A stretch of 64,000 bases of DNA from Planctomyces sp. SH-PL14 (GTDB taxonomy: Bacteria > Planctomycetota > Planctomycetia > Planctomycetales > Planctomycetaceae): contig NZ_CP011270.1 of NCBI RefSeq assembly GCF_001610835.1, positions 992,001-1,056,000 of the forward strand. Direction: 5' to 3'. The first letter of the stretch is position 1; each line of letters opens with the position of its first letter. Positions 677 to 41,535 of this stretch are shown here, in pieces. The notes under the pieces were generated by a model. The model made no database searches and was not told where the DNA came from. It was given only the letters and a program-made list of their open reading frames with translations. The translations under genes and the position numbers were made by a program.

Positions 677-2044
677 TCAGAAAAGCTCCGTAATCGGAGC
701 GCCGCACGGCAGGATCGGGTGCGGGCGGCCGGCGTGGTCGACGGTTTCGCGGGTGACATCGACGCCGAGGTGGCGGTAGATCGTCGCCAGCATGTCCTGG
801 ACGATCTTGGGGTTGTCCTGCGGGATCGCGCCGTTGCGGTCGGAGCTGCCGACGACGCGGCCCCCTTTCACTCCGCCCCCGGCGACGGCGACGCTCATGA
901 CCTGCGGCCAGTGGTCCCGGCCGGCGGCAGCGTTGATCCGCGGCGTTCGGCCCATTTCTCCCCAGGCCACGACAAGGGTGGTCTCCAGCAGCCCGCGCTC
1001 GGAGAGGTCTTCGATCAGCGCGGAGTAGGCCTGGTCCCACCGCGGAAGAAAACCGTTCTGGAGCGACCAGAAGTTGTCTTCGTGCGTGTCCCACCAGCGG
1101 CAGTCGACCGTCACCAGCCGCACCCCCGCCTCGACGAGCCGCCGGGCCAGGAGCATCCGCTGCGGCCAGTTTGGGGCGTCGCCGCCAGCCCGGACGCGGG
1201 ACATGTACTGTCCGAAGAACCCATATCGCTGGCGGACCGCGGCTGTCTCGGAATCGAGATCGAAGGCCTTCTGAACGGCGGTCCCCGCGAGCAGTTCAGA
1301 CGCCTGCCGGTGGAACTCGTCGACGGAGTCCATCGACGCCGTGCCGCCTCGGCGCTTCAGAGCATCGAGGTTCTCCATCAGCCGCCGACGGTCCTGCATC
1401 CGGTCGGTCGAAACCGCTTCCAGCAGGCGGAGGTTCGGAACGACGAATGGCTGTGACGAGGCGGGATCGGCCTGCGTCTCGAAGGCGTCCCAGCGGGAGC
1501 CGAGATACGCCGGGCTTGTCCCGGGGACATGCCGCGGCACCATGACGTAGGCCGGCATCTGGGGGTTGAGCGACTGGAGCTGCCGCTTGATCTGCGAACC
1601 GATACTGGGCGAGACGTTGATGTCGGGGATCGGCCCCGGCGGATGGCCGGTGAAGCAGACCTGGTCCCCGGTCGAGTGGTCGAGGCGGCCGTCCTCGGGG
1701 CGATAGTGCATGCTCCGGATGATGGACCATTTGTCCATGATCTTCGCCGACCGCGGCAGGTGCTCACTCACCTGAATCCCCGGCACGGCGGTGTCGATCG
1801 GGGAAAACTCTCCGCGGATCTCGACCGGGGCCTGCGGTTTGGGATCCCAGGTCTCGAACTGGCTCGGGCCGCCGCGCATCCAGAGGATGATGACCGACCG
1901 GTCGCGGCGGGCCGCCGCTCCGTGGGCCGCTTCGTGGGTGAGGAGTTGTTCGAGCGTCAGCCCGCCCGCGCCGAGCATCCCGATCCGGAGGAGCCCGCGA
2001 CGGTCGACGCGACACTGCTCCCGAAACGCCCGACAGCCACCCAT
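677..2044 (-). CDS. DUF1501 domain-containing exported protein
   Basis: A 455-residue member of the DUF1501 family, which belongs to the alkaline-phosphatase/sulfatase-like fold and is greatly expanded in planctomycetes; its biochemical role is unproven. The leader (CRVDRRGLLRIGMLGAGG) resembles a Tat signal with a twin arginine. Family landmarks are IILWMRGGPSQFETWDPKP near the N-terminus, SEHLPRSAKIMDKWSIIRSM, VDCRWWDTHEDNF, and VVAWGEMGRTPRIN with GRDHWP near the C-terminus; these contain the Asp/His residues expected at the metal site. The start at 2044 is preceded by a clear GGAGGT. The gene is divergent from the giant fusion gene starting at 2234 and shares a 189-bp upstream region with it. 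The opposite strand and other frames are also open because of high GC. Confidence 0.9.
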   Translation of the reverse strand: MGGCRAFREQCRVDRRGLLRIGMLGAGGLTLEQLLTHEAAHGAAARRDRSVIILWMRGGPSQFETWDPKPQAPVEIRGEFSPIDTAVPGIQVSEHLPRSAKIMDKWSIIRSMHYRPEDGRLDHSTGDQVCFTGHPPGPIPDINVSPSIGSQIKRQLQSLNPQMPAYVMVPRHVPGTSPAYLGSRWDAFETQADPASSQPFVVPNLRLLEAVSTDRMQDRRRLMENLDALKRRGGTASMDSVDEFHRQASELLAGTAVQKAFDLDSETAAVRQRYGFFGQYMSRVRAGGDAPNWPQRMLLARRLVEAGVRLVTVDCRWWDTHEDNFWSLQNGFLPRWDQAYSALIEDLSERGLLETTLVVAWGEMGRTPRINAAAGRDHWPQVMSVAVAGGGVKGGRVVGSSDRNGAIPQDNPKIVQDMLATIYRHLGVDVTRETVDHAGRPHPILPCGAPITELF

Positions 2045-2233
2045 GGAGACCTCCTGGAACACATCAATTGATAATGATAGGTTCCCCGGAGCGTTCGAAG
2101 CAACGAATTCCCGGCGTCGCGGAAACTCGCGACGTTGGCGGATCGTTGCCGCGGCGTCGTGTCGGCGCCGGAGCCCGTCCGCTACAACAGGCTCGCGCTC
2201 CGAAGCCGTTGCCTGGACAATGGGAGTCGGAAG

Positions 2234-5200
2234 ATGAGTTTGATCGATGGACCGGCCGTGACCGGTCGCTGGCCGCGGTGCGCGGTCCTGGCGAGTCTGA
2301 TCGTCGCCGGATGGATGTCGCTCGTGGGCCTCGCCGCGGCGGATGAGCCGACGACGGTCGCGGGGATCGCGGCGGCCGATATCACTCCTTCTTACCCGGT
2401 CCGGCTGAACGGGTTCCTCGTTAGGAAGTCCGAGTCGACCGGCGTCCGGCAGCGGATCTGGGCCAAGGCACTCGCTCTCGGGACGGACGAAGAGCGTCCG
2501 GTGGTCCTGATTACGACCGACTCCCTCGGCGTCTCGGACGAGATCGTCCAGGAGGTCGCGGGGCGGCTCAAACAGAAGGCCGGGATCGATCCCGCCCGCG
2601 TCTCGATCACGGCGACGCACACCCATTCGGCTCCGATGCTCAATGGCGTCGCCCCGAACATCTTCGGCGAGCCGATTCCCGACGACGCCCAGGCCCGGAT
2701 CGACCGCTACACCACGGAGTTCAAGAATCATCTCGAAGGGGTCGCCCTCGCGGCGCTCAAGGACCGCCAGCCGGCGCGGCTGTCGTGGGGCATCGGGAAG
2801 GCGTCGTTTGCCATCAACCGCCGCGCGCGGGGCGGCGCCGGACCGGTCGACCACGACGTTCCGATGCTGGCTGTCCATGATCCTGCCGGGAAACTGCGGG
2901 GGATCTACGTCAACTACGCCTGCCACTGTGTCACGCTCTCCGACCCCCTGATCAGCGGCGACTGGGCGGGCTACGCGATGGAGCACATCGAGCGGCTTCA
3001 TCCGGGGGCGCTTGCCCTCATCTCCGTCGGCTGCGGGGCCGACTCCAACCCCTCGTCCGGAGTAACCGGCAGCAACGCCGACGTCGCCTCGCAGCAGGGA
3101 GTCGAGATCGCGACGGCCGTCGACCGGCTCCTCGCCGGCCCACTGCGGCCGATCGCCGGCGTCCCGGAGGTTAAGACGACCCGCATCGACCTTGATCTTG
3201 CTCCGGTTCCGACTCGTGAGGAGTTCGTCCAGACCGGGATGCGGATGGACCCGACCGGCTACTTCGCCCGCGTCCAGGTCGCCAAGCTCGACCGCGGCGA
3301 GACGCTCCGGACAAAGATCAGTTACCCGATCACGACCTGGGCCTTCGGCGACGACCTGGCGATGGTCTTCCTGCCGGGCGAAGTCGTGGCGGAGTACGCG
3401 CTGCGGCTCAAGGCGGAGCTCGACGGCCGGCGGCTGTGGACGAACGCCTACGCCAACGCCGCCCCCTGCTACATCCCCAGCGAGCGGGTTCTCCAGCAGG
3501 GAGGCTACGAAGGGGGCGGGGCGATGATCTACTACGATCAGCCGAACAAATTCGCCCCCGGTCTCGAAGACAAGATCATCGGGACCGTCCGCAACCATCT
3601 CGACGCCGCCTTCGCTCCCCCGGTCGACCCAGCCAAGACCCAGGGAAGCCGGGCTCCCGCTCCCGAGGCAGCCCTCTTTGCTCTCAAGACGCTGCCCGGT
3701 CTGACGGTCGACCTCGTCGCCGCGGAGCCGTTCGTCACGTCGCCCGTCGCAATCGACTTCGGCCCGGACGGCCGGCTGTGGGTCTGCGAGATGTACGACT
3801 ATCCGCAGGGACTCGACGGAAACTACCAGCCCGGCGGACGGGTCCGGATGCTGGAAGACCGCGACGGAGACGGCCACTTCGACAGCTCCTCGGTCTTCCT
3901 CGAAGGGATCCCGTTCCCGACCGGAGTGACGGTCTGGCGGAAGGGGGTCCTCGTTTGCGCTGCTCCGGACATCCTGTACGCCGAAGACACCAACGGTGAT
4001 GGCAAAGCGGATGAAGTCCGCAAGCTGTTCAGCGGGTTCGGGACGGAGAACTTCCAGGCCCGCGTCAATAGCCTGGAGTACGGACTCGACGGCTGGGTCT
4101 ACGGCTCGTGCGGCCTGTTCGGCGGCGAGATCACGAACTCGTTCGGCAAGCCGCCGGTCCGGCTCGGGAATCGCGATTTCCGGATGAAGCCCGACACGGG
4201 CGAGCTCGAGCCCGCCACCGGCCGGACGCAGCAGGGGCGTCCCCGCGACGACTGGGGGAACTGGTTTGGCTGCGACAACAGCAATTTCGCGAGGCACTAC
4301 CCGCTCGCCGACCACGATCTCCGCCGCAACCCGCACGTCGCTCCTCCTGCCGCCTTCGTCTCCCTCCCGGCTGATGCCGAAGCGAACCGGGTCCACTCGG
4401 CGACCGACAAGGTGCAGCTCTTCAAGCTCTCCGGCCAGGGGGGCCGGGCGACGGCGGCGTGCGGCATCGGTGTGTATCGCGACGATCTCCTTGGCGATGC
4501 CTTCCGGGGAGACGTCTTTACGTGCGAACCGGTCAGCCTCGTCGTCCATCACCTGCACCTGAGCCCGCGCGGCGCCAGCTTCGCCGGTGAGCGTCCGGCC
4601 ACGGAGCAGGGACGGGAGTTCCTGGCCTCCACGAACAACTGGTTCCGCCCGGTGCAGGCCCGCACGGGACCGGACGGCGGGCTGTGGGTCGTCGATATGG
4701 CCCGGTTCGTCATCGAGCATCCGCGGTGGATCCCGGAGGCGGACCTCGCCAAGCTCGACGTCCGCGCGGGGTACGACCTCGGCCGCCTCTTCCGCGTTCG
4801 CCCGGCGGACCAGCCGGCCCGAAGCTGGCCGCGTCTCGACCGGCTCGACGCCGCCGGACTCGTCGCGGCTCTCGACTCTCCGAGCGGCTGGCAGCGGGAC
4901 ATGGCGATGCAGCTTCTCCTGTGGAAGCCGGACCCGGCGGCGGCGGCGGCGGCGCTGGCGACTCTGCTCCGCGAGGCCAAACGTCCCGAAACGCGGATGC
5001 AGGCGCTCTGCACATTGGATTGCCTGGGCTCGCTGGTGACCGCTGATCTCGTCCGAGCCTGTTCCGACGAGCACGCCGGCGTTCGCCGACAGGCAGTCCG
5101 GATTGCCGGACTGCACTCCGGCACTGAGCCCGCGATGGTCGAAACGCTGGCCGAACGCGTGAACGATCCCGATCCGCAGGTCCAGCTCGAACTCGCGGTC

Positions 5201-7774
5201 GCGCTCGGACAGAGCCCGTCTCCCGCGGCGGCCGAAGCCCTGGCGAAGCTCGCGGCCCGCAGCGGTGCCACGGCGCATCTCCAGGGAGCGATTGCCAGCA
5301 GCCTGAGCGCCGGGAACGTCGTCGCGGTCCTGAAGGCGGCTCTCCGCGATCCCGCCGTGACGCCAACCGAATCGCTCCTGCGGGCGCTCGTGACCACCGG
5401 CATCGCAGCCCTCCCCGAAGATCAGGTCGCCGCGATCGTGGGCGAAGTGTTCCCCGGAAACATCGAGAAGGAACAGGCCTGGCAGCGTCCTCTGGCGGCG
5501 GTGGCGCTGGAGTCGCTCGACCGCCGCCATCTCGCCCTGTCGAAGCTCCCGGAATCGGCCCAGGCGAGCATCACCTCGGTCATCGACCGCGCCCTTGGCA
5601 CGGTCAAGGATCTGCAACGTCCGGAAGCGGAGCGTGTCGCTGCCATTGGGGTGCTGGGACGCATCCGAGATCGCCAGGAGACCGACCTGAAGATCCTCGC
5701 CGAACTGCTGCAGCCGCAGCATGCGCCGAAGGTGCAGGCGGCTGCCGTCGCGGCGCTGGCCCGGATCGACTCTCGACTCGTCCCGCAGCGGCTCACCGAG
5801 CGCTGGTCCACGCTCTCTCCGGCGCTCCGGAACCAGATCCTTGATCTCCTCATCGGCCGCGCCGCGTGGCAGAGCCACCTGCTCGCCGAGATCGAACAGG
5901 GACGGATCGCCGCGGCCGCGCTCGATCTTCCCCGCCGGCAGCTCCTTCTCACCGGCGGCAACGCGGAGATCGCGACGCGCGCGGAAAAGGTCCTGGCGGG
6001 CGCGGTGAACGCCGACCGCCAGAAGGTCCTCAACACCTATCAGCCGGCCCTCGCGCTGTCCGGTGATGCCGCGCGCGGTCAGGCAGTCTTCGCGAAGACC
6101 TGCTCGGTCTGCCACCGCCTCGACAGCCAGGGGCACGCCATCGGTCCCGACCTCGCCGCTCTTTCGGCCAAGACCCCCGCGTTCTTCCTCCAGGAAATCC
6201 TCGACCCGAACCGGAACGTCGACAGCCGCTACGTCACCTACCTGGCGGTCACGACCGAAGGGCAGACGCACACTGGCCTCCTCGTCGCGGAGTCGGCATC
6301 GAGCATCACACTCCAGGCGCAGGAGGACAAGCGGGTCACGTTGTTGCGGGCCGATCTCGACGAGCTCGCCAGCAGCGGAAAATCGCTCATGCCGGAAGGC
6401 TTCGAGAAGGAGCTCGACCCGCAGAAGGTGGCCGACCTCCTGGCCTACCTCGCGCGGTCGAAGCCGGTTCGCAAGACCTTCCCCGGCAACGATCCCGGCG
6501 TGGTGCAGCCGGCCCCGAACGGGACCGTGTCGCTGCCGGCCACGAAGGGGGAGATTTACGGAGAACAGATCGTCTTCGAGGCCCCGTTCCAGAACATCGG
6601 CTACTGGCACGGAGCGAACGACTCCGTCGCCTGGCAGGTCCAGTTCCCCCAGCCCGCGGACCTCGATGTCTGGCTCGACGCCGCGTGCGATCCGGGGGCG
6701 GAAGGGAACCGGTTTGCCGTTCTTGCGGGAACGACACGCGTCGAAGGGGCGATGCCGTCGACCGGCGGCTGGGACCGCTACCGGCCGGTCAAGGCGGGAA
6801 CGGTCTCGCTGGCCGCCGGGGCTCAGACCGTCACTGTCCGCCCCGCCGGCGACGCCATCCGCGGAGCCCTGATGGACCTGCGGGCCGTCTATCTCGTCCC
6901 GCCCGGAATGAATCCTCCCTCTATGGCGGAGGCGACGCCGAACGCGATCCCCCAGTCGCCGGTTCAGCTCGCTGAAGCGATCCTGAGCGACCAGACCCCC
7001 AAGGCCGACCGGGACCGCTTTGTTGAGGCGAGCCTGCCGCATGCGGACGAAGTCGTCGCCGCCATGGCCCGCGGGCTCGGGAGCGACAGCACCGAGGAGT
7101 ACCGCCGTATCCCATGGATCTGGCGAGTCTCGATCGGCGCCGCGCGGCAGAAGGACCCGCAGGTCCTGACGCGGCTGCTCGACGCCTCGCTCCCCAAGAT
7201 GGGCGAGCCGCTCCGTGACTGGCAGGCAGTCGTTCTTGGCGGGGGAATCATCAATGGCCTCAGTCTGGAAGGGCGATGGCCGACCGAGGAGATTTCCGGC
7301 TGGGTCAAAGACCGCGAAGAGTTGCGGACCCGCTGGAACCAGGCGATCGCCCTGTCGTTTCGCATGGCGGAGGAGACGGCGGTCCGGAACGGGACTCGGT
7401 ATGATGCGCTCCGGATGGTCGCGTGTGGAGATTGGGAGCTGGCTCGTCCGCTCCTGGCGAAATACCTCGGCAAGGGGATGAACGCGGAGCTGCAGATGGG
7501 GGCTGTCAGCGGGCTCGCGGATTGCGATTCTCCCGCCGTTCCCGCGCTCCTGATCGAAGCGTTTCCCGGGCTGACGCCGAAAAACCGCTCACTGGCGATT
7601 GGTGCTCTGCTGCGGTCCGATTCGCGAAAGGCCGCGCTCGTGGAGGCGCTGGAGAAAGGGACGCTCAAGGCTGAAGAGATTCCCGCGGCCGATCGACCGG
7701 CGATTCTGTCAGGGCTGTCTGGTGAGCAGCGATCGAAGGTCGAACAGTTGTTGGCCCCTTCGTCGGCCAAATGA
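2234..7774 (+). CDS. Giant fusion: neutral ceramidase-like domain + membrane-bound dehydrogenase + HEAT + CxxCH cytochrome
   Basis: A secreted 1846-residue multidomain protein. A signal peptide ends near residue 35 (VGLAAA). Residues about 38-455 resemble the N-terminal domain of neutral/alkaline non-lysosomal ceramidases, with His-rich motifs TATHTHSAPML and NYACHCVTL as likely zinc ligands. Residues about 479-855 are the planctomycete/verrucomicrobial membrane-bound dehydrogenase propeller (SPVAIDFGPDGRLWVCEMYD, DRDGDGHFD). Residues about 870-1270 are HEAT-like helices. A haem motif CSVCH lies at residues 1290-1294, with GPDLAAL and QEILDPNRNVDSRY as in the C-terminal planctomycete cytochrome domain. 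A jelly-roll-like segment (about 1432-1552) and a helical tail follow. The ATG at 2234 gives the signal peptide; the upstream open frame to 2135 does not. Substrate unknown; periplasmic oxidation or hydrolysis of an exopolymer is an inference. Confidence 0.85.
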   Translation: MSLIDGPAVTGRWPRCAVLASLIVAGWMSLVGLAAADEPTTVAGIAAADITPSYPVRLNGFLVRKSESTGVRQRIWAKALALGTDEERPVVLITTDSLGVSDEIVQEVAGRLKQKAGIDPARVSITATHTHSAPMLNGVAPNIFGEPIPDDAQARIDRYTTEFKNHLEGVALAALKDRQPARLSWGIGKASFAINRRARGGAGPVDHDVPMLAVHDPAGKLRGIYVNYACHCVTLSDPLISGDWAGYAMEHIERLHPGALALISVGCGADSNPSSGVTGSNADVASQQGVEIATAVDRLLAGPLRPIAGVPEVKTTRIDLDLAPVPTREEFVQTGMRMDPTGYFARVQVAKLDRGETLRTKISYPITTWAFGDDLAMVFLPGEVVAEYALRLKAELDGRRLWTNAYANAAPCYIPSERVLQQGGYEGGGAMIYYDQPNKFAPGLEDKIIGTVRNHLDAAFAPPVDPAKTQGSRAPAPEAALFALKTLPGLTVDLVAAEPFVTSPVAIDFGPDGRLWVCEMYDYPQGLDGNYQPGGRVRMLEDRDGDGHFDSSSVFLEGIPFPTGVTVWRKGVLVCAAPDILYAEDTNGDGKADEVRKLFSGFGTENFQARVNSLEYGLDGWVYGSCGLFGGEITNSFGKPPVRLGNRDFRMKPDTGELEPATGRTQQGRPRDDWGNWFGCDNSNFARHYPLADHDLRRNPHVAPPAAFVSLPADAEANRVHSATDKVQLFKLSGQGGRATAACGIGVYRDDLLGDAFRGDVFTCEPVSLVVHHLHLSPRGASFAGERPATEQGREFLASTNNWFRPVQARTGPDGGLWVVDMARFVIEHPRWIPEADLAKLDVRAGYDLGRLFRVRPADQPARSWPRLDRLDAAGLVAALDSPSGWQRDMAMQLLLWKPDPAAAAAALATLLREAKRPETRMQALCTLDCLGSLVTADLVRACSDEHAGVRRQAVRIAGLHSGTEPAMVETLAERVNDPDPQVQLELAVALGQSPSPAAAEALAKLAARSGATAHLQGAIASSLSAGNVVAVLKAALRDPAVTPTESLLRALVTTGIAALPEDQVAAIVGEVFPGNIEKEQAWQRPLAAVALESLDRRHLALSKLPESAQASITSVIDRALGTVKDLQRPEAERVAAIGVLGRIRDRQETDLKILAELLQPQHAPKVQAAAVAALARIDSRLVPQRLTERWSTLSPALRNQILDLLIGRAAWQSHLLAEIEQGRIAAAALDLPRRQLLLTGGNAEIATRAEKVLAGAVNADRQKVLNTYQPALALSGDAARGQAVFAKTCSVCHRLDSQGHAIGPDLAALSAKTPAFFLQEILDPNRNVDSRYVTYLAVTTEGQTHTGLLVAESASSITLQAQEDKRVTLLRADLDELASSGKSLMPEGFEKELDPQKVADLLAYLARSKPVRKTFPGNDPGVVQPAPNGTVSLPATKGEIYGEQIVFEAPFQNIGYWHGANDSVAWQVQFPQPADLDVWLDAACDPGAEGNRFAVLAGTTRVEGAMPSTGGWDRYRPVKAGTVSLAAGAQTVTVRPAGDAIRGALMDLRAVYLVPPGMNPPSMAEATPNAIPQSPVQLAEAILSDQTPKADRDRFVEASLPHADEVVAAMARGLGSDSTEEYRRIPWIWRVSIGAARQKDPQVLTRLLDASLPKMGEPLRDWQAVVLGGGIINGLSLEGRWPTEEISGWVKDREELRTRWNQAIALSFRMAEETAVRNGTRYDALRMVACGDWELARPLLAKYLGKGMNAELQMGAVSGLADCDSPAVPALLIEAFPGLTPKNRSLAIGALLRSDSRKAALVEALEKGTLKAEEIPAADRPAILSGLSGEQRSKVEQLLAPSSAK

Positions 7775-7845
7775 CAGGGCGGCTCCCACGCACTGGCTCG
7801 CGGAATCGGCACCCGTCGGCACGGGGGGGGGGCTGAATGGTGGTC

Positions 7846-8173
7846 GAACCGCGTGCTTGCCGGCACGACTTCCATAGCTCAAACCCAACGTGCTACGGCA
7901 GCCGGGGTCAAGGGGGCAACCCCTTGCCGCCGGAGGCATTCCGGTGAGGAACCGTGGCAAGCAACGGATGTCCCCTTTGTGGGACCAGCTATGAGCACTC
8001 CTTCACACCACACCGCTGGCTTTGCAATCCCAGCGGGTTGGTGAGGGGGCATACGACACGGTGTCCGCGTTTGGACACGTGCTCCTTCAGACATCTCTCG
8101 ACGGTCAGGCCTCCGGCGGGCAAAGGGGCGGTGCCCCTCTGCACTCCCCACCAGGGGGCCCCTGGACCCGGTG
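7846..8173 (+). repeat. Dispersed intergenic element, copy A (~330 bp)
   Basis: This is the reference orientation of a ten-copy family. It begins with GAACCGCGTGCTTGCCGG and ends with CCCCTGGACCCGGTG. Internal landmarks in order are CTCAAACCCAACGTGC, hairpin CAAGGGG-GCAA-CCCCTTG (7909-7926), GCCGCCGGAGGC, a CACAA/TTGTG-type pairing, CTCAC...GTGAGGGGG, hairpin TGTCC-GCGTTT-GGACA, CTTCAGACATCTCTCGAC, GCCTCCGGCGGGC, hairpin GGGGC-GGT-GCCCC and CCAGGGGGCCCCTGG. It fills most of the 561-bp gap between the fusion gene and fabI. The 70 bp before it hold a G tract and no gene. Confidence 0.9.
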
Positions 8174-8220
8174 GGACTGCGCAAACGCACCCGTCGGCCC
8201 AGGACGCCCGATCTTGGATA

Positions 8221-8250
8221 TTGCCCGCGGCACGCTCCGTTCAGTATTGT
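8221..8250 (+). promoter_or_regulatory. Possible sigma70-like promoter for fabI
   Basis: TTGCCC (8221-8226) and TATTGT (8245-8250) are separated by 18 bp and lie about 85 bp upstream of the fabI start, just downstream of repeat copy A. The match to consensus is only partial. Confidence 0.25.
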
Positions 8251-8335
8251 TCTATCGCCTTGAAACGCAATGACATCGGGGCAGACACATCCATCGCCCC
8301 CGATGGCGGGTCTGTCGGTTACGAAGGACAATGAC

Positions 8336-9166
8336 ATGGGATTCTTTGACGGCAAACGCGGGCTCATTTTCGGCATCGCCAACGAGTACTCGATCGCCTA
8401 CCGCATCACCCAGCAGCTCCACGAGCAGGGGGCCGAAATGGCCTTCACCCACCTGCCCGACAAGGACCCCGCCCGCCCCAAGAATGCCAACAAGGTTAAG
8501 AAACTCGTCGACAGCATGAAGACGAAGTTCCTCATGCCGTGCGACGTCACGAAGGACGCCGACCTCGACGCCGTCTTCGCCAAGGCCAAGGAAGAGTTCG
8601 GGACGATCGACTTCGTTCTCCACAGCATCGCCTTCGCCCCGCCGGCCGACCTCGTCGGCCCCGTCTACGCCTGCAGCCGCGACGGCTTCAAGCTGGCGAT
8701 GGAAATCAGCGCGTACAGCATGATCGCCCTCTGCGGCCGGTCGAAGGACCTGATGCCCAGCGGCGGCAGCATCCTCTGCCTGACGTACCTGGGCGGCGAA
8801 AAGGTCATCCCCGGCTACAACCTGATGGGACTCTGCAAGTCGGCTCTCGAGAGCGCCACCGAATACTGCGCCAGCGAGCTCGGACCGCAGGGGATCCGCG
8901 TCAACGCCCTCAGCGCCGGTCCGGTGAAGACCGTCAGCTCCCAGGGAGTCGGCGAGTTCGACCAGATGCTCAAGCTCTACGAAGCGTTCTCGCCGATGCG
9001 GCGGAACGTCGTTCCCGATGAAGTCGGCAAGTCGGGGATGTTCCTGCTCAGCGACATGGCCAGCGCGATCACGGGTGAGACGCTCCACGTCGACTGCGGC
9101 TACCACGTGATGGGTGGCCCGCCGCACGACGCCGTCGGCAAGCTCGCCCCGGGGGCGGGGGCCTGA
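8336..9166 (+). CDS. fabI: Enoyl-[acyl-carrier-protein] reductase (NADH), FabI type
   Basis: Catalyses the last reduction of each fatty-acid elongation cycle (trans-2-enoyl-ACP to acyl-ACP) in the cytoplasm. The 276-residue product is a short-chain dehydrogenase-fold enzyme. It starts with the FabI-type nucleotide motif [18 protein letters not shown], where Ser/Ala replace the usual glycines. The FabI catalytic Tyr-X6-Lys is in [13 protein letters not shown], and the C-terminal landmarks are [14 protein letters not shown] and [14 protein letters not shown]. The ATG at 8336 follows GAAGGACAATGAC, which contains an AAGGA ribosome site; an upstream in-frame ATG at 8270 is less likely. The stop codon abuts the start of dus, so the two are probably co-transcribed. 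Confidence 0.95.
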
Positions 9167-10270
9167 TTGAGCCTGACTGCCGGTCTCACCGCCCCGACCG
9201 CTGACTCGGCCGTTCCCGCACTGCTGGAGAATGGCCCGATCGCGATCGGGGCGCGGACGATCCCGACCCGCTACTTCCTCGCGCCGCTCGCCGGCTACAC
9301 GCATCTGGCGTTTCGCCGCGTGCTGCGCGAGCTCGGCGGGCTCGGTCTCGCGACGACCGATCTTGTGCATGCGACGATGCTCGTCTCCGGGAAGCGGAAG
9401 TCGCTTGAGCTGATCGAGACGCATCCCGCGGACACGCCGCTGTCGGTCCAGATCTATAGCGGCGTGCGGGAGCATGTCGTTACCGCGGCGAAGTGGCTGG
9501 AAGACCGGGGCTACCGGGGCGTCGACATCAACATGGGCTGCCCGATGGCCAAGGTGACGGGCTCGGGGGGCGGGGCGCGGCTCATGTGCGATCCGGATGG
9601 GGCCTGCCGCCTCGTCGCCGATACGGTCGCGGCCGTGAAGATCCCGGTGACGGTCAAGATGCGGCTGGGGTGGGACCGGAACACGATTACCGCCCCGGCT
9701 CTGGCGCGGGAGTTCGAGGCGGCGGGCGTGGCGGCGATCACGATTCATGGTCGGACCCGGTCGCAGGGCTTTCGCGGGACGGTCGACCTGGACGGGATTC
9801 GCGACGTTGTGGCGGCCGTGGACGCGATTCCGGTGATCGGCAACGGGGATGTCGTGACCGTGGCGGACGCGATCCGGATGCGGGAATACACCGGTTGCGA
9901 TGCGGTGGCGATTGGCCGGGGGGCGCTGCTGGATCCGTGGATGTTCCGCAGGCTGGGCGCGTGGCATGAGGGTGCTGATGCGGAGTTTACGCCGACGCCG
10001 GAGGACCAGGTCCGGTTTCTAAGGCGGCATCTGGAGCTGATGTGGGAGCAGCATGGGGATTACAGCTGCTTGATGTTCCGGAAGTTTGCGGCGTGGTATG
10101 GGGCGCGGCTGGGGATTCCGGAGGATCTGGAGGATCGGTTGCGGCGGTTCACGAGTCGGGAGGAGTTTGACGGGATTGCGGCGGAGGTGGCGGAGCGGCA
10201 TGGCCAGCGTGAGATGACGGTGGCGACGGCGTTGATCCGTGTTCCGAACGGGCCGGTCGAGCACTGGTAG
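9167..10270 (+). CDS. tRNA-dihydrouridine synthase (Dus family)
   Basis: Reduces specific uridines in tRNA to dihydrouridine using FMN. The 367-residue protein has the TIM-barrel opening FLAPLAGYTHLAFRRVLREL, the catalytic-loop motif DINMGCPMAKVTGSGGGARL (Cys is the general acid), VKMRLGWD, ITIHGRTRSQGF, the FMN-phosphate loop PVIGNGDV, and GCDAVAIGRGALLDPWMF. The start appears to be TTG at 9167, with zero spacing after the fabI TGA and a G-rich stretch upstream; no ATG in the correct frame lies near the N-terminal domain boundary. Which subfamily (DusA, B or C) it belongs to is not decided here. Repeat copy B follows directly. Confidence 0.92.
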   Translation: MSLTAGLTAPTADSAVPALLENGPIAIGARTIPTRYFLAPLAGYTHLAFRRVLRELGGLGLATTDLVHATMLVSGKRKSLELIETHPADTPLSVQIYSGVREHVVTAAKWLEDRGYRGVDINMGCPMAKVTGSGGGARLMCDPDGACRLVADTVAAVKIPVTVKMRLGWDRNTITAPALAREFEAAGVAAITIHGRTRSQGFRGTVDLDGIRDVVAAVDAIPVIGNGDVVTVADAIRMREYTGCDAVAIGRGALLDPWMFRRLGAWHEGADAEFTPTPEDQVRFLRRHLELMWEQHGDYSCLMFRKFAAWYGARLGIPEDLEDRLRRFTSREEFDGIAAEVAERHGQREMTVATALIRVPNGPVEHW

Positions 10271-10290
10271 ACGGCGATACGTCGCCAACT

Positions 10291-10623
10291 CGAACAGCGC
10301 GCCGGCCGGCACAGTGATGCCCGCTCAAACCCATTGTGCCACGGCCGCTGGGGTCAAGGGGGCCTCGCCCCCTTGCCGCCGGAGGCACTCCTATGAGGAA
10401 CCGTGGGACACAACGGACGTCCGCTTTGTGGTACCAGCTATGTGGACTCCCTCATATCACACAGCTCGCTTCGCAATCCCTGCGGGTTAGGTGAGGGGGC
10501 ATACCGCACGTCGTCCGCGTTTGGACACACTCTCCTTCAGACATCTCTCGACGGCCAGGCCTCCGGCGGGCAAAGGGGCGTTGCCCCTCTGCACTCCCCA
10601 CCAGGGTGCCCCTGGACCCGGTG
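10291..10623 (+). repeat. Dispersed intergenic element, copy B (~330 bp)
   Basis: Full-length copy in the reference orientation. The first 40 bases are diverged, but everything from GCTCAAACCC onward matches copy A. The left hairpin is CAAGGGGGC-CTC-GCCCCCTTG (10355-10375) and the right end carries GGGGC-GTT-GCCCC and CCAGGG-TG-CCCCTGG. It occupies essentially the whole gap between the convergent dus and hydrolase genes, ending 11 bp before the hydrolase stop. Confidence 0.92.
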
Positions 10624-10633
10624 AAGGTGAGCG

Positions 10634-11734
10634 CTACTGCGCCAGTACACGATCGAACAACGCGTACGCCCGCTCACGGATCTCATTCGGAAAGTCGTGA
10701 TCGCAATCCGGATGCGCCACCTCCAGACGATCCCCCGCCCTCAACAACTCAAACACCGGCCGCGCCGCCACCACAACCCGGTCCACACTGTCATGCCGAA
10801 AGTTCGAATCATGCAGCGGAGCCGAAATGAAAACATGCCGCGGCGCGAGCGCCGCCACCAGCTCCGAAAAATCGAACGGAATCGTATCGACCTTCCCCCG
10901 ATACCCCGCCAGCCGCGGCATATACCGCGTCTGCGCCCACCCCTTCTCCGGCATCCACACCCGCTCCACCCCACCGTAATAGTCCACGAACTGATCAAGA
11001 CCGCAGGAAGAAACAATCACCTTCAGCCGCTCGTCAAACAGCGCCGCGAACACCGAATTGTGCCCCCCCAGCGAATGCCCGATCACCCCGTACTGCCCGG
11101 TCCGGACAAACGGCAGCGAATCCAGCAGATCCAGCCCCCGCGAAGCATCCCAGATCGCCTTCATCGTCCCGCTCTCCCACCCCAGCCCCTTGAGATCCGG
11201 CTGGTAGTTCGCCAGCAGCGGATAACTGGGAGCCAGCGTGACGTACCCCCGCTCCGCCAGTTCGCTGGCATACTGCCGGTTCGCTTTCCCTCCCAGTCCC
11301 ACGACCACCTTGTAGCCGACCACATTGTCGGTCGGATGCAGGCACAGAACCGCCGGCGCCTTCGTTCCCGCGTCGCCGAGCAGCTTCTTCGGAATCAGCA
11401 GAAACGCCGGAACACGACCATTTGGCTCAGACGTGTACTCGATCATCCGCCGCACATAGCTCCCGCAGTCCTCCTCTGACAGCGTCTTCACGTCGAGAGG
11501 AACGCGCCGCTCCAGCCCGGGAAACGGCCCGGCCACCTGCTGAAACGCCGTCAGGATCGCCTTCCGCCGCTTCTCCCAGTCCTCCGCCGTCCTGGCCGGC
11601 TCCGGCTTCCCCGACGGGGTGGAAAACAGCAGAAGCTCGTCCCGAGGGAGCGTGCGAACCGGCAGCCCCTCCTCGCCGCGCACACGGCCGTGGACGAGAA
11701 GAACGACAACCAGCGCAGCGAGAGTGCGGAGCAT
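10634..11734 (-). CDS. Secreted alpha/beta hydrolase (dienelactone hydrolase / acetyl-esterase-like)
   Basis: A 366-residue exported hydrolase. The N-terminus [20 protein letters not shown] is a signal peptide. The catalytic Ser lies in the nucleophile elbow [12 protein letters not shown], and a likely catalytic His is in HPDCDHDFP near the C-terminus. [19 protein letters not shown] and [15 protein letters not shown] resemble large carbohydrate-esterase-like hydrolases that planctomycetes export. The start at 11734 was chosen for the signal peptide, although the ribosome site is weak. The gene is divergent from serC, and the 210 bp between them hold both promoters but no clear consensus. An ester-linked polysaccharide substituent is the likely substrate; this is inference. 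Confidence 0.82.
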
Positions 11735-13229: not shown

Positions 13230-16200
13230 ATGACGATGTCGTGGTCTCTTCGCGTGGCGGGAATGCTTCTCGCCACTGTTCTTCTGCTTGTCCGGACGAC
13301 CTCAGCCGAAGAGGTCGTGCTCAACGGCCACCGGTTCTCGATCCCGGACGGGTTTTCGATCGAACAGGTCACGACGACCGACCTCGTCGAGCGGCCGATC
13401 ACGGCGGACTTCGACGAACAGGGACACCTCTACGTCGCCGATTCGTCGGGTTCGAACGAGCCGGTCCAGCAGCAGTTGAAAGACCCGACGCACCGCATCA
13501 TCCGGCTGAGCGATTCCGACGGTGACGGCCGGTACGACCGGAAGACGCTCTTTGCCGACCGGGTGATGTTTCCCGAAGGGACGATGTGGTTCGACGGCTC
13601 GCTCTATGTCTCCGCGCCGCCGAGCATCTGGAAGTTCACCGACCGTGATGGCGACGGCGTGGCGGAAGAGCGGACCGAGTGGTTCCAGGGGAAGACGCTC
13701 ACCGGCTGCGCCAACGACCTTCACGGCCCGTATCTGGGGCCCGACGGCTGGATTTACTGGTGCAAAGGGGCATTCGCCGAGCAGACCTACGACCGGCCGG
13801 GCAAACCGCCGCTGGTGACCAAGGCCTCGCACATCCTCCGCTGCCGTCCCGATGGTTCGAAGATCGAATCGGTCATGACCGGCGGGATGGACAACCCGGT
13901 CGATGTCGCTTTCCTCCCGACCGGCGAGCGGTTTCTGACAACGACGTTCTTCCAGATGCCCGCCGGCGGGTTCCGCGATGGGCTGATCCACGCCGTCTAT
14001 GGCGGCCTGTTCGGCAAGGTCCACGGGGTCCTCGACGGCCACCCGCGGACGTACCCCGACGTCCTGCCGGTCTTCGACCATCTCGGCCCCGCCGCCCCGT
14101 GCGGACTCCACCGGCTGGAGTCCGCAGCTTGGGATGAGCCCTACCGCAACAATCTCTTCGCCGCCTGCTTCAACCTCAAGAAGGTGACGCGTCATAAGGT
14201 CGTCGAAGCGGGTGGATCGTTCCGCAGCGAGACGTCCGACTTCGTCGTCTCGGACAACATCGACTTCCATCCGACCGATGTCCTCGAAGACGCCGACGGC
14301 AGCCTGCTGATCGTCGACACCGGGGGCTGGTACAAGCTCTGCTGCCCCACGTCGCAGCTCAGCAAGCCGGACGTCCTTGGCGCGATCTATCGCGTCCGTC
14401 CGAAGGGACTCGCTGTCCCGGCAGACCCGCGCGGTCTGCAACTCGACTGGAACGCCCCGTCGCCTGTCGAACTGGCGAAACGGCTGACCGACTCGCGATC
14501 AGCGGTTCGCCTCCGAGCGCGGCAGGCATTCCGCACCACTGGCGACGCCGGAACCGCCGCGCTCGCTTCTCTCGCGTCGCAGTCGTCCGCCGCAGCCGGC
14601 GAAGCGGTCTGGGCCGCTTCGTGGATCGAACAGCCTTCGGCGCGGGCGTTCGTCCGCGGCCACCTCCACCATGCGGACCCATCGGTCCAGCGGATCGCGC
14701 TGCACGTGGCCGGGGCCTGGAAAGACACGGAAGCCCGGGCGGACATCGCGGGGCTTCTCAAGAGCCCCTCGCCTGCCGTTCGCCGCGCGGCGGCTGAGAC
14801 GCTCGCCCAATGCGGCGATGGCAATTCGACCGAGCCGCTGCTGACATCGCTGGCGTCTGTCGTGGCGGAGGACTGGGGAACGGTTCATGCTCACACGCTG
14901 GCGTTGATGGAGTGCGGCGATCTCCCGCAGATGCTCGCAGCCCTTCCGACTGCGGCCCCGACTGTCCAACAGTCTCTCCTGATGGCGATCGAGCAACGGG
15001 CGCCGGAACAGCTTCCAGTCGACGTGGTCGTCACTCTGTTGTCGGCTGGTGACACGTCTCTTCGTGATGCGGCCCGCTGGGTTGTGGCCCGTCACGCCGA
15101 GTGGGGGCCGCAGCTTGTCGCCCGGTATTCTGCCCAGCTTCGCCACCGTGACCTCTCCGACGCCGACGCGGCGAACCTCGTCCGGGACATGGCTGCACTC
15201 TGCCCGTCGACCTCGATCCAGAAGCTGCTGGCCGACCTGCTGATCGATACGACGGTCGAGTCCAAGACGCACGATCTCGTCCTGCGAATCATGGTTGCCG
15301 CCGGCCTGAAGCCGGCGCCGACTCCGTGGATCGACGCCGTCGTGACCGCCCTCGGTCGCGGCCCGGACCGAATCGGTCCCTCCCTGGAGGCGGTCCGGAG
15401 CCTGACGATCCCCAAGGATCAGATCGGCCGTGTCGCCGGAGCCCTCCGTACCGTGGCTGCAAACTCCGCGGCCACCCCGCCCCTCCGGCTCGAAGCGCTG
15501 GCCTCGATTCCTGGCGGCAGTGGCCCGGTCGCCGCTGATCTCTTCGAACTTACCGTCTCCTCCGCTGCAGGTGACGACGCCTCCGCCCGGTCGTGGGCCG
15601 TTCGGCTCCTGGGCGCGGCGGCTCTGAATCCTGAGCAGAAGCAGAAGGCGATCCCGCTGTTCCAGGAAGCGACGCCTCTGGAACTCGACCGGCTCGTGGG
15701 CCTCTACGGGGGAACGACCGACGACGCGCTGGCCCTGGCGGTCCTGAAGGGGGCCGAAGCCGCGGAGTCGTTCCGGTCACTCCGCGGGGATGCCCTGCGG
15801 GCGACATTTGCCAAATGCGGTCCGACTGTCGTGGCCGAGATTGACCGCCTGACGGAGAAACTCAACGCCGACTACGCCGTGCAGAAGGCTCGGCTGGAGA
15901 CGACGCTCGCGTCGCTCACTCAGGCGGGCGGCGATGTCCGCCGCGGCCAGCTCGTGTTCACCAATCAGAAGCTCGCCTGCACCGGGTGTCACGCCATCGG
16001 CTATCGCGGCGGGAAGATCGGGCCCGATCTGACGCGGATCGGGCAGGTCCGGACCGAACGCGATCTTCTGGAAGCGATCCTGTTCCCGAGCGCGAGCTTC
16101 GTCCGCAGTTATGAGCCGATGCTGATCGTGACCGTCGACGGCCTCACGCACTCAGGCCTCGTGAAGAGCGAGACGCCGGAGGAGATCGTGCTGACGGTGA

Positions 16201-16346
16201 AGCCCGATCAGGAGGTTCGCGTCTCCCGCTCGCAGATCGAAGAGATCCGGCCGGGGACGGTCTCCATCATGCCGGCGGGGCTCGATCAGCAGCTCTCCCA
16301 GCAGGAACTGGCGGACCTAGTGGCGTTCCTTAAGGCGTGTCGCTGA
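13230..16346 (+). CDS. PVC-type membrane-bound dehydrogenase with HEAT repeats and CxxCH haem domain
   Basis: A 1038-residue exported protein. The signal peptide is near residues 1-26 (LLATVLLLVRTTSAEE). Residues about 35-400 form the planctomycete dehydrogenase-like propeller (PITADFDEQGHLYVADSSG, DSDGDGRYDRKTLF, GPDGWIYWCKGAF, DFHPTDVLEDADGSLLIVDT). A long HEAT-like helical region follows, about 410-870. The C-terminal cytochrome domain has CTGCH at 917-921, with GRGQLVFTNQ-like and GPDLTRIGQ motifs and a final QQLSQQELADLVAFL. It has the same architecture as the second half of the protein encoded at 2234-7774, so the two are paralogues without the ceramidase part. Electron transfer from an unknown periplasmic substrate is the usual proposal. 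Confidence 0.88.
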   Translation: MTMSWSLRVAGMLLATVLLLVRTTSAEEVVLNGHRFSIPDGFSIEQVTTTDLVERPITADFDEQGHLYVADSSGSNEPVQQQLKDPTHRIIRLSDSDGDGRYDRKTLFADRVMFPEGTMWFDGSLYVSAPPSIWKFTDRDGDGVAEERTEWFQGKTLTGCANDLHGPYLGPDGWIYWCKGAFAEQTYDRPGKPPLVTKASHILRCRPDGSKIESVMTGGMDNPVDVAFLPTGERFLTTTFFQMPAGGFRDGLIHAVYGGLFGKVHGVLDGHPRTYPDVLPVFDHLGPAAPCGLHRLESAAWDEPYRNNLFAACFNLKKVTRHKVVEAGGSFRSETSDFVVSDNIDFHPTDVLEDADGSLLIVDTGGWYKLCCPTSQLSKPDVLGAIYRVRPKGLAVPADPRGLQLDWNAPSPVELAKRLTDSRSAVRLRARQAFRTTGDAGTAALASLASQSSAAAGEAVWAASWIEQPSARAFVRGHLHHADPSVQRIALHVAGAWKDTEARADIAGLLKSPSPAVRRAAAETLAQCGDGNSTEPLLTSLASVVAEDWGTVHAHTLALMECGDLPQMLAALPTAAPTVQQSLLMAIEQRAPEQLPVDVVVTLLSAGDTSLRDAARWVVARHAEWGPQLVARYSAQLRHRDLSDADAANLVRDMAALCPSTSIQKLLADLLIDTTVESKTHDLVLRIMVAAGLKPAPTPWIDAVVTALGRGPDRIGPSLEAVRSLTIPKDQIGRVAGALRTVAANSAATPPLRLEALASIPGGSGPVAADLFELTVSSAAGDDASARSWAVRLLGAAALNPEQKQKAIPLFQEATPLELDRLVGLYGGTTDDALALAVLKGAEAAESFRSLRGDALRATFAKCGPTVVAEIDRLTEKLNADYAVQKARLETTLASLTQAGGDVRRGQLVFTNQKLACTGCHAIGYRGGKIGPDLTRIGQVRTERDLLEAILFPSASFVRSYEPMLIVTVDGLTHSGLVKSETPEEIVLTVKPDQEVRVSRSQIEEIRPGTVSIMPAGLDQQLSQQELADLVAFLKACR

Positions 16347-16357: not shown

Positions 16358-16608
16358 GAACCGCGTCCTCGTCGGCACGACTCTGCTGGCTCAAACCCAA
16401 TGTAGAACCAGCGATGAGGACTCCTTCACGACACACCGCTTGCTTTGCAATCCCCGCGGGTTGGTGAAGGCGCATCCGGCAAGGTGTCCGCGTTTGGACA
16501 CGCCCTCCTTCAGACATCTCTCGACGGCCAGGCCTCCGGCGGGCAAAGGGCCAAGAAAACAACACAGGCCCCTCTGCACTCCCCACCAGGGTGCCCCTGG
16601 ACCCGGTG
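16358..16608 (+). repeat. Dispersed intergenic element, copy C (internally deleted, ~250 bp)
   Basis: Same left end (GAACCGCGTCCTC...CTCAAACCCAATGT) and same right end as other copies, but about 100 bp between the CTCAAACCC box and the ACCAGC-ATGAGGACTCC box is missing, including the left hairpin. The right hairpin uses the long loop variant AAGAAAACAACACA flanked by GGGCC and GGCCC. It lies in the 390-bp gap between two co-oriented genes. The 128 bp between the element and the next start show no gene. Confidence 0.9.
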
Positions 16609-16736
16609 GGGTGGGGACAATGTTTGAGTCGATGCTTTGTCCCCATTGCTTGAACCCATCGGCGCACACCGATAGCTTCCCCTCACGCCTTCGCCACACG
16701 GCGCAGGCTCCAGCAGACGAAACCGTGAGGTGCTCC

Positions 16737-17780
16737 ATGGTGCGATGGCGGTGGTTGGCGGCAACGGCAGGGACAGTCCTCTCAGCCGCGCTCGGTATGA
16801 ACGCAGCAACAGCGCAGGACACGCTGAACTTCCCGATCCTGGGCGAAGTCATCCGGCACGACGGCGCCGTCGACAAGCTCCTCCCCAAGGACGCCAAGAT
16901 CGAAGTCCTCGGCTCCGGCTTCGAATGGGCCGAAGGACCGGTCTGGGTGCCGGGCAAAGGGAACGAACCCGGCTTCCTCCTCTTCTCCGACATCCCCCGC
17001 AACTCGATCATGAAATGGGTCGAGGGCAAAGGGGTCAGCCTCTACCTCAAGCCCGCGGGCTACACCGGCGTCGTCGAGTACGGCGGCGAGCCGGGCTCCA
17101 ACGGCCTCATCCTCGATCCCAAGGGACAGGTCGTCTGCTGCGAACATGGCGACCGCCGGCTCTCGGTCATCACGACCGGCGGCGGAAAGCGGACCCTCGT
17201 CGACAACTACGAAGGGAAGCGGCTCAACAGCCCTAACGACGCCACGTTCCATTCGGGCGGCGACATCTATTTCACCGACCCGCCGTACGGCCTTCCCAAG
17301 CAGTATGATGATCCGCGCCGGGAGCTCGATTTCTGTGGCGTGTACCGTGTGGCCAAGGATGGCAAGGTCACGCTGCTAACGAAGGAAATGACGCGGCCTA
17401 ACGGCATCGGGTTCTCGCCCGACGAGAAGACCCTGTACGTCGCTCAGTCGGATCCCGCCGCGGCGGTCGTGAAGGCCTTTGCGGTCAAGGCAGACGGCAC
17501 GCTCGGTGAGGGGAAGGTTCTGTACGACTTCACCGCCGATTTCAAGAAGGGGTGGCCCGGGTTGCCGGACGGTCTCGCGGTCGATGCTCAGGGGAACATC
17601 TGGGCGACCGCTCCGGGTGGCGTTTCGATTCTGACCCCTGAGGGGAAGCTGCTTGGCCGGCTGAGCACGGGGGAGCGGACGGCGAACTGCAAGTTCGGCG
17701 GACCGGACGGCAGCACGTTGTTCATGACGGCGGACATGTACATCTGCCGGATCAAGACGTCGACGAAGGCAGCGCGGTAA
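16737..17780 (+). CDS. SMP-30/gluconolactonase-like exported lactonase
   Basis: A six-bladed beta-propeller of the SMP-30/gluconolactonase/LRE-like family that opens sugar lactones with a divalent metal. The 347-residue product begins with a signal peptide (RWLAATAGTVLSAALGMNAATAQ). The metal-binding residues of the family are recognisable: Glu in GFEWAEGPVWVPG, Asn/Asp in LNSPNDATFHSGGDIYFTD, and Asp in LPDGLAVDAQGNIWA. MTRPNGIGFSPDEKTLYVAQ is also typical. The ATG at 16737 follows GTGAGGTGCTCC, which contains GAGG. It stands alone between repeat copies C and D, so no operon context helps with its substrate. Confidence 0.9.
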   Translation: MVRWRWLAATAGTVLSAALGMNAATAQDTLNFPILGEVIRHDGAVDKLLPKDAKIEVLGSGFEWAEGPVWVPGKGNEPGFLLFSDIPRNSIMKWVEGKGVSLYLKPAGYTGVVEYGGEPGSNGLILDPKGQVVCCEHGDRRLSVITTGGGKRTLVDNYEGKRLNSPNDATFHSGGDIYFTDPPYGLPKQYDDPRRELDFCGVYRVAKDGKVTLLTKEMTRPNGIGFSPDEKTLYVAQSDPAAAVVKAFAVKADGTLGEGKVLYDFTADFKKGWPGLPDGLAVDAQGNIWATAPGGVSILTPEGKLLGRLSTGERTANCKFGGPDGSTLFMTADMYICRIKTSTKAAR

Positions 17781-40242: not shown

Positions 40243-41535
40243 CTAGCCGAAGAGGGCCGCGATCGGCTGCCCGCGGTCCGTGATCGGCACCGGGCGGTCG
40301 CCGTCGTACAGGTTCTTCGTGTAGTCGATCCCGAGCGCCGCGTGGATCGTGGCGAAGAAATCCGGAACCGAGACGGAGTCGGAGACGATCTTCTTCGACA
40401 GCTCGTCGGTCTCGCCGAACGCGCCGCGGTGCCTGAGTCCGCCCCCCGCCAGGACGCAGGTGAAGCAGGTCCCCTGATGCCCGCGGCCTCCGCCCCCGTC
40501 GAACTCCGGCGGCCGGCCGAACTCGCTGGTGATGACGATGACCGTCTTGTCGAGGAGCTTCTTCTCCTCGAGGTCGAGGATCAGCGACGACATCGCCTGG
40601 TCGAGCTCCGCGATCAGCTCGTGCTGCTTCAGGATGCCGCCGTTGTGGACGTCCCAGCCGGTTCCGTTGAGGAAGTTCAGGTTGTGCGAGACTTCGAGGA
40701 ACCGCACCCCCCGCTCGATGAGGCGGCGGGAAAGCAGCAGCCGCTGGCCGAACTCCCCGCCGTAGCGGTTGCGGAGATCGCTCGGCTCCTCTTCCAGCCG
40801 GAAGCTGCGGGTGAACTCCGGACCGCTGAGCTTGAGGCTCTGGTCGATGGCAGCGTCGTAGTCGCGAAGGACCGTCTCGGCGTCCTTCGGCTGGCGGTCG
40901 CGGAGGGCGGTCAGGAACGCCTCCCGCCGCGACTGGCGATCCGGCGTGATCCCGTCCGGCCGGGAGAGTCCGGCCGGGCCCTGGCTCGTGTCGGTGAGGT
41001 AGAGATATCCATCCTTTGAACCGAGGAAGCCTGGGCCGCGGGTGACGTTGGGGTAGCCGATCAGGACGTACGGGGGAGCGCCGTCCTGAGCCGCGCCGCG
41101 CTCGTGGGCGACGGCCGAGCCGAGCGACGGATAGACCACGGTTCCGCTCACCGGCCGGCCGGTGTGCATCCGGTTCGTCGCGGCGGCGTGCTCGTCGATC
41201 ACCTCGTGGTGGACGGTCCGAACCGCCGTCACGCGGTCCATCAGGGGAGCAAGCCGCCTGAGGTGTTCGCAGACCTGGACCCCCTGGACGGCGGTGTCGA
41301 CGCTGTCGTAGTACGAGCCGGCGACCTTCTTGACCGGGTCGCCGCGGCGCTTCGGATCGAACGTGTCGATCTGCCCCATGCCGCCGCCGAGCCAGATCGA
41401 AATGACATGCTCCGCCTTCCCCTTGAGGAGGGTCGGCGAAGCGGCCTGGTCGGCGGTGAGCGGCTGGGCCAGGGCGCCGAGGGCCGCGGTGGCGGCCGAC
41501 GCGGCGAGAAAGTCCCGTCGGGAAAAATCAGTCAT
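40243..41535 (-). CDS. DUF1501 domain-containing exported protein (paired with 41648-45355)
   Basis: A 430-residue DUF1501 protein. The N-terminus [20 protein letters not shown] is a clear Tat signal with twin arginine. Landmarks are [80 protein letters not shown] with a following GHQG motif, and [15 protein letters not shown]. It follows the DUF1549/1553 gene by 112 bp in the same direction, the standard planctomycete arrangement, suggesting that both products act on the same substrate in the envelope. The catalytic activity of the family is not established. Confidence 0.9.

Follow-up and report, generated by a model that had tools for sequence, protein, structure and literature searches.

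The stretch of the Planctomyces sp. SH-PL14 genome analysed here (contig NZ_CP011270.1, positions 992,001 to 1,056,000; 64,000 nucleotides, hereafter the window) carries at 2234-7774 on the forward strand a single open frame from ATG, encoding one chain of 1846 residues. The source genome is a single contig of 8.44 Mb. A preliminary description had presented the gene as a fusion of a ceramidase-like hydrolase to a dehydrogenase-cytochrome protein, and the ceramidase-type domain, the propeller, the HEAT repeats and the CxxCH cytochrome were recovered by Pfam and NCBIfam in the order that it gave (Table 1). Its jelly-roll segment, checked by structure prediction, appears in the AlphaFold model as a sandwich of CBM6/CBM35 type (CBM, carbohydrate-binding module). 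The listed domains are thus confirmed, but an all-helical domain at the C-terminus had been overlooked. Judged by eye from its N-terminus, the fusion protein is probably exported. The fusion gene is a real, recurrent and informative architecture, which extends the known cytochrome proteins of the Planctomycetes-Verrucomicrobia-Chlamydiae (PVC) bacteria and does not constitute a new kind of system.

Table 1. Features of the window, with positions and the basis of each assignment.
Feature	Residues	Positions	Strand	Basis
N-terminal signal-like segment	1-36	2234..2341	+	Basic start, hydrophobic core, AxA-like end; by eye
Neutral-ceramidase-fold zinc hydrolase domain	36-465	2339..3628	+	Pfam, profile, model
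DUF7133/TIGR02604 beta-propeller	477-858	3662..4807	+	Pfam, NCBIfam, VIA
HEAT-repeat segment	about 905-1265	4946..6028	+	Pfam HEAT_2; alphaRep matches in PDB
TIGR02603 c-type cytochrome domain	1277-1407	6062..6454	+	NCBIfam; VIA
Jelly-roll domain, CBM6/CBM35 fold	about 1424-1560	6503..6913	+	AlphaFold model and VIA
All-helical C-terminal domain, alpha-solenoid-like, no family	about 1575-1846	6956..7771	+	Secondary structure of the model
Alpha/beta-hydrolase, glucuronoyl/acetyl-xylan-esterase-like		10637..11734	-	Pfam GCE_fung, E 3.4e-8, longer frame
Stand-alone DUF7133-HEAT-cytochrome paralogue, no ceramidase-like domain		13230..16346	+	Pfam, NCBIfam

An antisense open frame of 2121 codons (677-7042, reverse strand) runs across most of the fusion gene, in all likelihood as a by-product of GC-rich codon usage. 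Family matches and conservation were sought, and found, in the sense frame.

Residues 44-255 match Pfam Ceramidase_alk over its cut-off (E 3.3e-12). No ceramidase was found at E 0.01 when the whole fusion protein was the query in a PDB sequence search; a profile made from 24 fusion domains matched the neutral ceramidases 2zws (E 3.9e-22) and 4wgk (E 6.2e-21), and these two were its only PDB matches up to E 0.1. An AlphaFold model covering the ceramidase-like domain and the propeller has a mean predicted local distance difference test (pLDDT) score of 87.4 and a predicted template modelling (pTM) score of 0.65, and its hydrolase part superimposes on the Pseudomonas enzyme (2zws) with Z 39.0 over 395 residues (root-mean-square deviation, rmsd, 3.7; 22% identity; VIA) and on human neutral ceramidase (4wgk) with Z 36.0.

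In HMMER alignments H97, H99, R160, H204, E411, Y448 and Y460 of 2zws correspond to H129, H131, R196, H231, E383, Y413 and Y425 of the window protein. H97, H204, E411 and Y448 are the zinc ligands of 2zws, which makes H129, H231, E383 and Y413 the putative zinc ligands of the window protein, with H131, R196 and Y425 as further residues of the site. The ligand set and the equivalents of H99, R160 and Y460 are invariant in 24/24 fusion domains. In a wider alignment of 93 rows, which includes two own-genome rows twice, the four ligands are retained in 93, 92, 93 and 93 rows, respectively, and the other three residues in 92, 93 and 92, the sole exception among the ligands being a distant paralogue from the same genome. 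The domain thus shares with neutral ceramidase (PF04734; 2zws, 4wgk) the whole catalytic fold, the four zinc ligands and the equivalents of His99, Arg160 and Tyr460.

It differs from neutral ceramidase at the catalytic serine, in lacking an immunoglobulin (Ig)-like domain, in its redox-type chassis and in its carbohydrate-related partners. The serine position is occupied by N272 in the window protein; across the 93 rows Asn prevails (84), followed by Asp (4) and Gly (2), and Arg, Ile and Ser are seen once each. For the human enzyme the excerpts of PMC6952831 considered here describe an amidase motif and the residues His196, Arg257, Tyr579, Tyr591 and Ser354, and assign to Ser354 the stabilisation of Arg257, which is thereby kept in place (PMC6952831). 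An Asn at this position may hold the Arg as well, so the change is compatible with activity and not decisive. Pfam gave no match for the Ig-like C-terminal ceramidase domain in the fusion protein, the structural match to 2zws stops at its residue 488, and there is no room for such a tail because the propeller starts at residue 477, about 12 residues past the end of the hydrolase. A true ceramidase, or an amidase of other N-acyl lipids, whose released amino alcohol would be oxidised by the fused module, would explain the high scores against both the Pseudomonas and the human enzyme and the retention of all zinc ligands and of the key His, Arg and Tyr. We nevertheless consider it unlikely: the mostly replaced serine makes a ceramidase identity less likely, the propeller follows directly where the Ig-like domain would be, and the partner domains described below are often carbohydrate enzymes. 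In view of the mostly replaced serine and the carbohydrate-enzyme partners, a sugar looks a likelier substrate than a lipid such as ceramide.

The propeller matches Pfam DUF7133 (residues 477-858, E 3.7e-140) and TIGR02604 (residues 489-858, 277.8 bits against a cut-off of 122.2); 26 DUF7133 matches in 24 open frames were found in the same genome. Its model matches 3a9g with Z 25.8 over 284 residues (rmsd 3.1; VIA) and the AA12 enzyme 6h7t with Z 24.9, and the top structure matches, from Z 25.8 down to about 22, are pyrroloquinoline quinone (PQQ)-dependent sugar dehydrogenases and AA12 pyranose dehydrogenases (3a9g, 6h7t, 6jt5, 1qbi). In the enzyme from Coprinopsis, too, a cytochrome forms part of the chain. 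Of the 90 propeller frames that were mapped, 82 contain a haem domain as well, and six of the other eight are truncated where the locus ends. The label dehydrogenase is given to the propeller because of this fold and the attached haem domain.

The dehydrogenase of the preliminary description accordingly holds as to fold; several observations weigh against an oxidising role. Sequence similarity to the PQQ enzymes is marginal: the profile alignment with E. coli Asd reaches E 2.6e-4, and in this weak alignment one PQQ-site arginine is kept and the GP..DE calcium/PQQ loop is not recognisable in DUF7133. Among the PQQ synthesis genes, pqqE stays below its cut-off in the own genome (59.7 of 381 bits), and pqqC gave no match there; across the phylum, 0/195 genomes have pqqC over its cut-off and six have a weak match. 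The control genomes gave no pqqC match either, so that absence of PQQ synthesis is not proven. In addition, one uncut propeller frame, that of the Chitinophagaceae locus L166, has no haem domain. The propeller might then be no dehydrogenase but a binding or lyase/lactonase-type scaffold, in which case the cytochrome would receive its electrons from another source, and the same model does match lactonases and designed propellers with Z of about 21. We find this rather doubtful, given that the best matches are sugar dehydrogenases (Z 25.8-23) and that the haem domain so regularly stands alongside.

Behind the propeller, the HEAT segment (Pfam HEAT_2, E 2.1e-13, best stretch residues 939-1010) leads to the haem domain, which matches Pfam Cytochrom_C at residues 1279-1328 (E 2.8e-9) and TIGR02603 with 114.5 bits (cut-off 68.15). 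The CxxCH haem motif lies at residues 1290-1294; its Cys, Cys and His are invariant in 14/14 aligned sequences, as is Met 1386, a candidate for the second axial haem ligand. A model of residues 1274-1846, built with 14 sequences (mean pLDDT 85.8, pTM 0.52), relates the TIGR02603 part to Kustd1711, a diheme cytochrome from Kuenenia (Z 15.0 at 25-26% identity), and the jelly roll to FucWf4 (9pnk), a GH29-like fucosidase and its best match (Z 17.3; VIA), to the CBM6 of an agarase (2cdp, Z 15.7) and to a CBM35 (2w1w, Z 15.1). By sequence the window jelly roll stays under the cut-off of Pfam CBM_6 (E 0.003, 18.3 bits, cut-off 28.9), and that of the relative L165 falls just under it with 28.7 bits. 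Most 10-residue blocks of the helical C-terminal domain are above pLDDT 90. No Pfam family matches this domain over its cut-off; HEAT regions are also picked up by a profile built from it, and matches to the CBM and haem parts took up the Foldseek and VIA lists of the model.

Recurrence of the fusion had been set as a test of its reality, with occurrence nowhere else as the outcome that would have spoken against it, and the same architecture was found in many genomes. Among 59 genomes (own included), 23 relatives have the ceramidase-like domain and the propeller in one frame, and in two more (G015 and G017) the listed matches run from hydrolase to cytochrome. In 170 genomes of the order (own included), all belonging to one family, at least 64 have a ceramidase-like match in an open frame of at least 1200 codons, as counted by hand from match and frame length. 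Named records gave 451 relatives, of which the best 80 loci were taken: 28 are fused, three have the propeller as a separate gene within the locus, 48 are without it and one is cut. Within these 80, fused loci belong to Planctomycetota and Verrucomicrobiota, and those of Poribacteria, Bacteroidota and Hydrogenedentota are all unfused. The jelly roll is present in 15 of the 28 fused loci and absent from 13, six of the 28 frames being cut by the end of the locus. A fusion made by sequencing was considered and is ruled out, as the same order recurs across many independent assemblies.

Side-by-side forms also occur. In two Opitutae loci (L158 and L163) hydrolase and propeller frames are directly adjacent on the same strand, and in L166 a hydrolase with jelly roll is followed by an esterase-GDSL gene and, farther on, by the propeller-HEAT gene without haem. 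The hydrolase precedes the propeller in 65/65 mapped fused frames, a count in which L012 and L190 are one gene and L011 and L094 (the latter recorded as uncultured Schlesneria, Planctomycetaceae) have identical hydrolase domains. A tree computed by a quick method from 120 hydrolase domains, of which 56 are unfused, 51 are fused and 13 come with a deacetylase (weak or odd-length match rows and three duplicate loci omitted), requires a minimum of 14 switches from one state to the other, fused or unfused, six of them forced by starred branches; the number is rough, since some rows taken as unfused may be broken frames or cut contigs. The many different partners of the DUF7133 module, and the 48/80 loci in which the search turned up the hydrolase without a propeller gene, could mean that the domains are joined for export or co-location only and share no substrate. 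Against this stand the repeated fusion or fission and the constant position of the hydrolase ahead of the propeller, and we regard it as very unlikely. The fused and side-by-side forms fit the joint action on one substrate claimed in the preliminary description, but its order of hydrolysis first, then oxidation and electron transfer, was only inferred.

The closest paralogue in the genome is not the stand-alone gene at 13230, which was ruled out as nearest relative, but a 1708-codon frame located at 4.74 Mb, with 42% identity across residues 476-1558. In this frame a NodB/CE4-type deacetylase (Polysacc_deac_1, 25.4 bits, cut-off 23.1) replaces the ceramidase-like domain and stands with FG-GAP repeats ahead of the same series of propeller, HEAT, cytochrome and CBM. 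By eye it has D-D, HxxxHP and FHPHG motifs resembling those of CE4. The two hydrolases can also share a chain: a 2061-codon frame of Fuerstiella (L164) encodes deacetylase, ceramidase-like domain, propeller, HEAT, cytochrome and CBM. A CE4-type deacetylase precedes the ceramidase-like domain in 12/12 mapped frames of more than 2000 codons, and in 13/13 with L164. The 12 were mapped from 15 such frames listed among the genomes of the order, and for the remaining three (G070, G072, G150) a deacetylase match lies in a frame of the same size on the same contig. Two of the 13 chains were checked with Pfam (L178 and L164), and Polysacc_deac_1 is over its cut-off in both. CE4/NodB deacetylases (PF01522) are thus found in one chain with these domains in relatives and in the own-genome paralogue, and are absent from the window protein.

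The deacetylase was found in 82/170 genomes of the order; its 71 strongest rows comprise 16 in frames of at least 2000 codons, 44 in frames of 1500-2000 and 11 in shorter ones. Deacetylase and close ceramidase-like domain occur together in 47 genomes, one without the other in 20 and 35, and neither in 68 (p 5e-6, uncorrected for descent, with chains that have both domains entering both sides). By genus the association is weak (14/6/15/23, p 0.05), which counts against a carbohydrate link drawn from it. For the deacetylase link the shared chain is strong evidence and the co-occurrence weak evidence.

Other partners of the two modules were also found. N-terminal parts were scanned in eight of the 24 own-genome DUF7133 frames: four carry deacetylase plus FG-GAP, ThuA, FG-GAP and GDSL, respectively, and another carries ThuA and F5/8 type C. 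One chain (L075, G000:C1:8186500-8193500) combines a 3-keto-disaccharide hydrolase, ThuA, NPCBM, the DUF7133 propeller and a cytochrome; the 3-keto-disaccharide hydrolase family was formerly named DUF1080. The two frames without an N-terminal match are L078, which is cut, and L079, where ThuA is found C-terminally instead. The ceramidase-like domain, in turn, is fused to an esterase-like hydrolase in L111, L117 and L124, to a GDSL hydrolase in L149, and to a sulfatase with HEAT repeats in L168 (2-2830, forward strand; frame start cut).

No conserved neighbourhood was found for the fused forms, and the neighbour clusters belong mostly to Poribacteria, where the ceramidase-like gene stands alone. 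These stand-alone relatives (45-50% identical) lie in 10/13 Poribacteria loci with ABC (ATP-binding cassette)-transporter ATPase, permease and alanine-racemase-like genes, the Pfam run on these neighbours being confined to L118; in that locus the genes span 5777-11296 (forward strand), and nine other loci are alike. The neighbours point to an amino-acid or peptide amide as the substrate and so weigh against a sugar. The hydrolase might then cleave N-acyl amino acids, or D-amino-acid or peptidoglycan-derived amides. The racemase cluster is also seen in two unfused Prosthecobacter loci (L157, L169), but a member lies beside 0/28 fused loci. The ATPase cluster occurs at fused L095, L097 and L099 and at unfused L101 (Verrucomicrobiia), and the permease cluster at fused L099, the one fused locus that has both. 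As the fused forms, moreover, often have the CBM fold and carbohydrate partners, an amino-acid or peptide substrate appears as improbable to us as a ceramide.

The order of propeller, HEAT and haem domain is that of the PVC-type heme-binding CxxCH proteins (TIGR02604 plus TIGR02603, DUF7133), to which the window protein adds a ceramidase-fold domain ahead and a CBM-fold and a helical domain behind. The planctomycete-specific cytochromes PSCyt1-3/PSD1-5, reportedly described by Studholme in 2004, likewise combine, in PVC bacteria, haem domains and carbohydrate-binding modules in shuffled arrangements. No PSCyt1, 2, 3 or PSD domain was matched by Pfam in the window protein at E 0.01, and a PSCyt/PSD gene lies in the flanks of seven loci, of which L110 and L115 are the two fused ones. 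In the excerpts of He et al. 2017 (PMC5615132) used here, PSCyt genes of Verrucomicrobia also encode CBMs and a role in carbohydrate metabolism is suggested, with nothing known of PSCyt function. A Thermogutta study, as far as its excerpts go, ties DUF1080 to planctomycete xanthan breakdown (PMC5673643), and oxidation at C3 followed by glycoside cleavage is described in passages of PMC10628242. In the open-access literature no paper was found on this fusion and none that names DUF7133; one paper names TIGR02604. No paper linking neutral ceramidase with planctomycetes was found either, and those that mention a ceramidase together with planctomycetes are unrelated, judging by title and abstract.

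The computed domains, zinc-ligand set, haem motif and CBM fold, together with the repeated occurrence of the fusion and the reassortment of carbohydrate enzymes on these modules, lead us to propose, with a probability of roughly 40%, that the fusion protein is an exported, carbohydrate-directed multidomain enzyme in which a carbohydrate deacylase is coupled to an oxidising, haem-linked module. Sugar is preferred over lipid as the material processed because many relatives share the fusion and some have a polysaccharide deacetylase in the chain. The CBM6/35-like domain would hold a polysaccharide or oligosaccharide, and the zinc site of the ceramidase-fold domain would take off an acyl group, the likeliest bond being an amide like that of an N-acylated amino sugar; for these two steps we draw on the folds, the kept residues and the partner domains. 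The DUF7133 propeller might then oxidise the exposed sugar, and the haem in the fused cytochrome might accept the electrons, as suggested by fold and fusion only, and the HEAT and helical parts would hold the pieces together.

More tentatively, and with odds well short of even, the PVC bacteria may have repurposed the ceramidase fold as a carbohydrate N-deacylase and possess a respiration-linked polysaccharide machine in a single chain, made up of this N-deacylase, a CE4 deacetylase, a sugar-oxidising propeller with a cofactor other than self-made PQQ, a cytochrome and a CBM. New here are the single-chain form with deacetylase, ceramidase-like domain, propeller, cytochrome and CBM, and the case for regarding these "ceramidases" as carbohydrate enzymes. 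Planctomycetes and their relatives break down complex polysaccharides by machinery that is only partly understood, and for DUF7133, a family without assigned function, the fusions are natural hints at the substrate of the module. If the proposal is true, the ceramidase label now given to many proteins of these phyla would stand for enzymes that act on sugars, and one could test directly whether the cytochrome modules serve as electron outlets when sugar is oxidised outside the cytoplasm.

Two further genes of the window are listed in Table 1. The esterase-like alpha/beta-hydrolase is probably exported and is a possible partner of the fusion protein: its product is 46-47% identical to the hydrolase fused in L111, L117 and L124 and 40% identical to that of the gene after the hydrolase in L166, and the genome holds two copies above 200 bits, itself included. 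A search at E 1e-5 through the frames that neighbour the 28 fused loci, covering non-overlapping frames of at least 150 codons in flanks of differing length, found no counterpart of it. The stand-alone paralogue has matches to DUF7133, HEAT and cytochrome only, as had been claimed, and is a distant relative of the fusion protein. It is followed by a gluconolactonase-type (SGL) gene (16440-17780, forward strand), which would suit a sugar-oxidising role for this paralogue.

The window further contains two DUF1501 genes on the reverse strand (40243-41535, with a twin-arginine translocation (Tat) signal match, and 45526-46992), about 32 and 38 kb from the fusion gene, and a 1056-codon protein of DUF11/CARDB-type repeats that is possibly surface-exposed (18213-21383, reverse strand). 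A gene of the dihydrouridine-synthase family lies near the ceramidase-like gene both in the window (9167-10270, forward strand) and in L118 (13957-14952, reverse strand), which may be chance.

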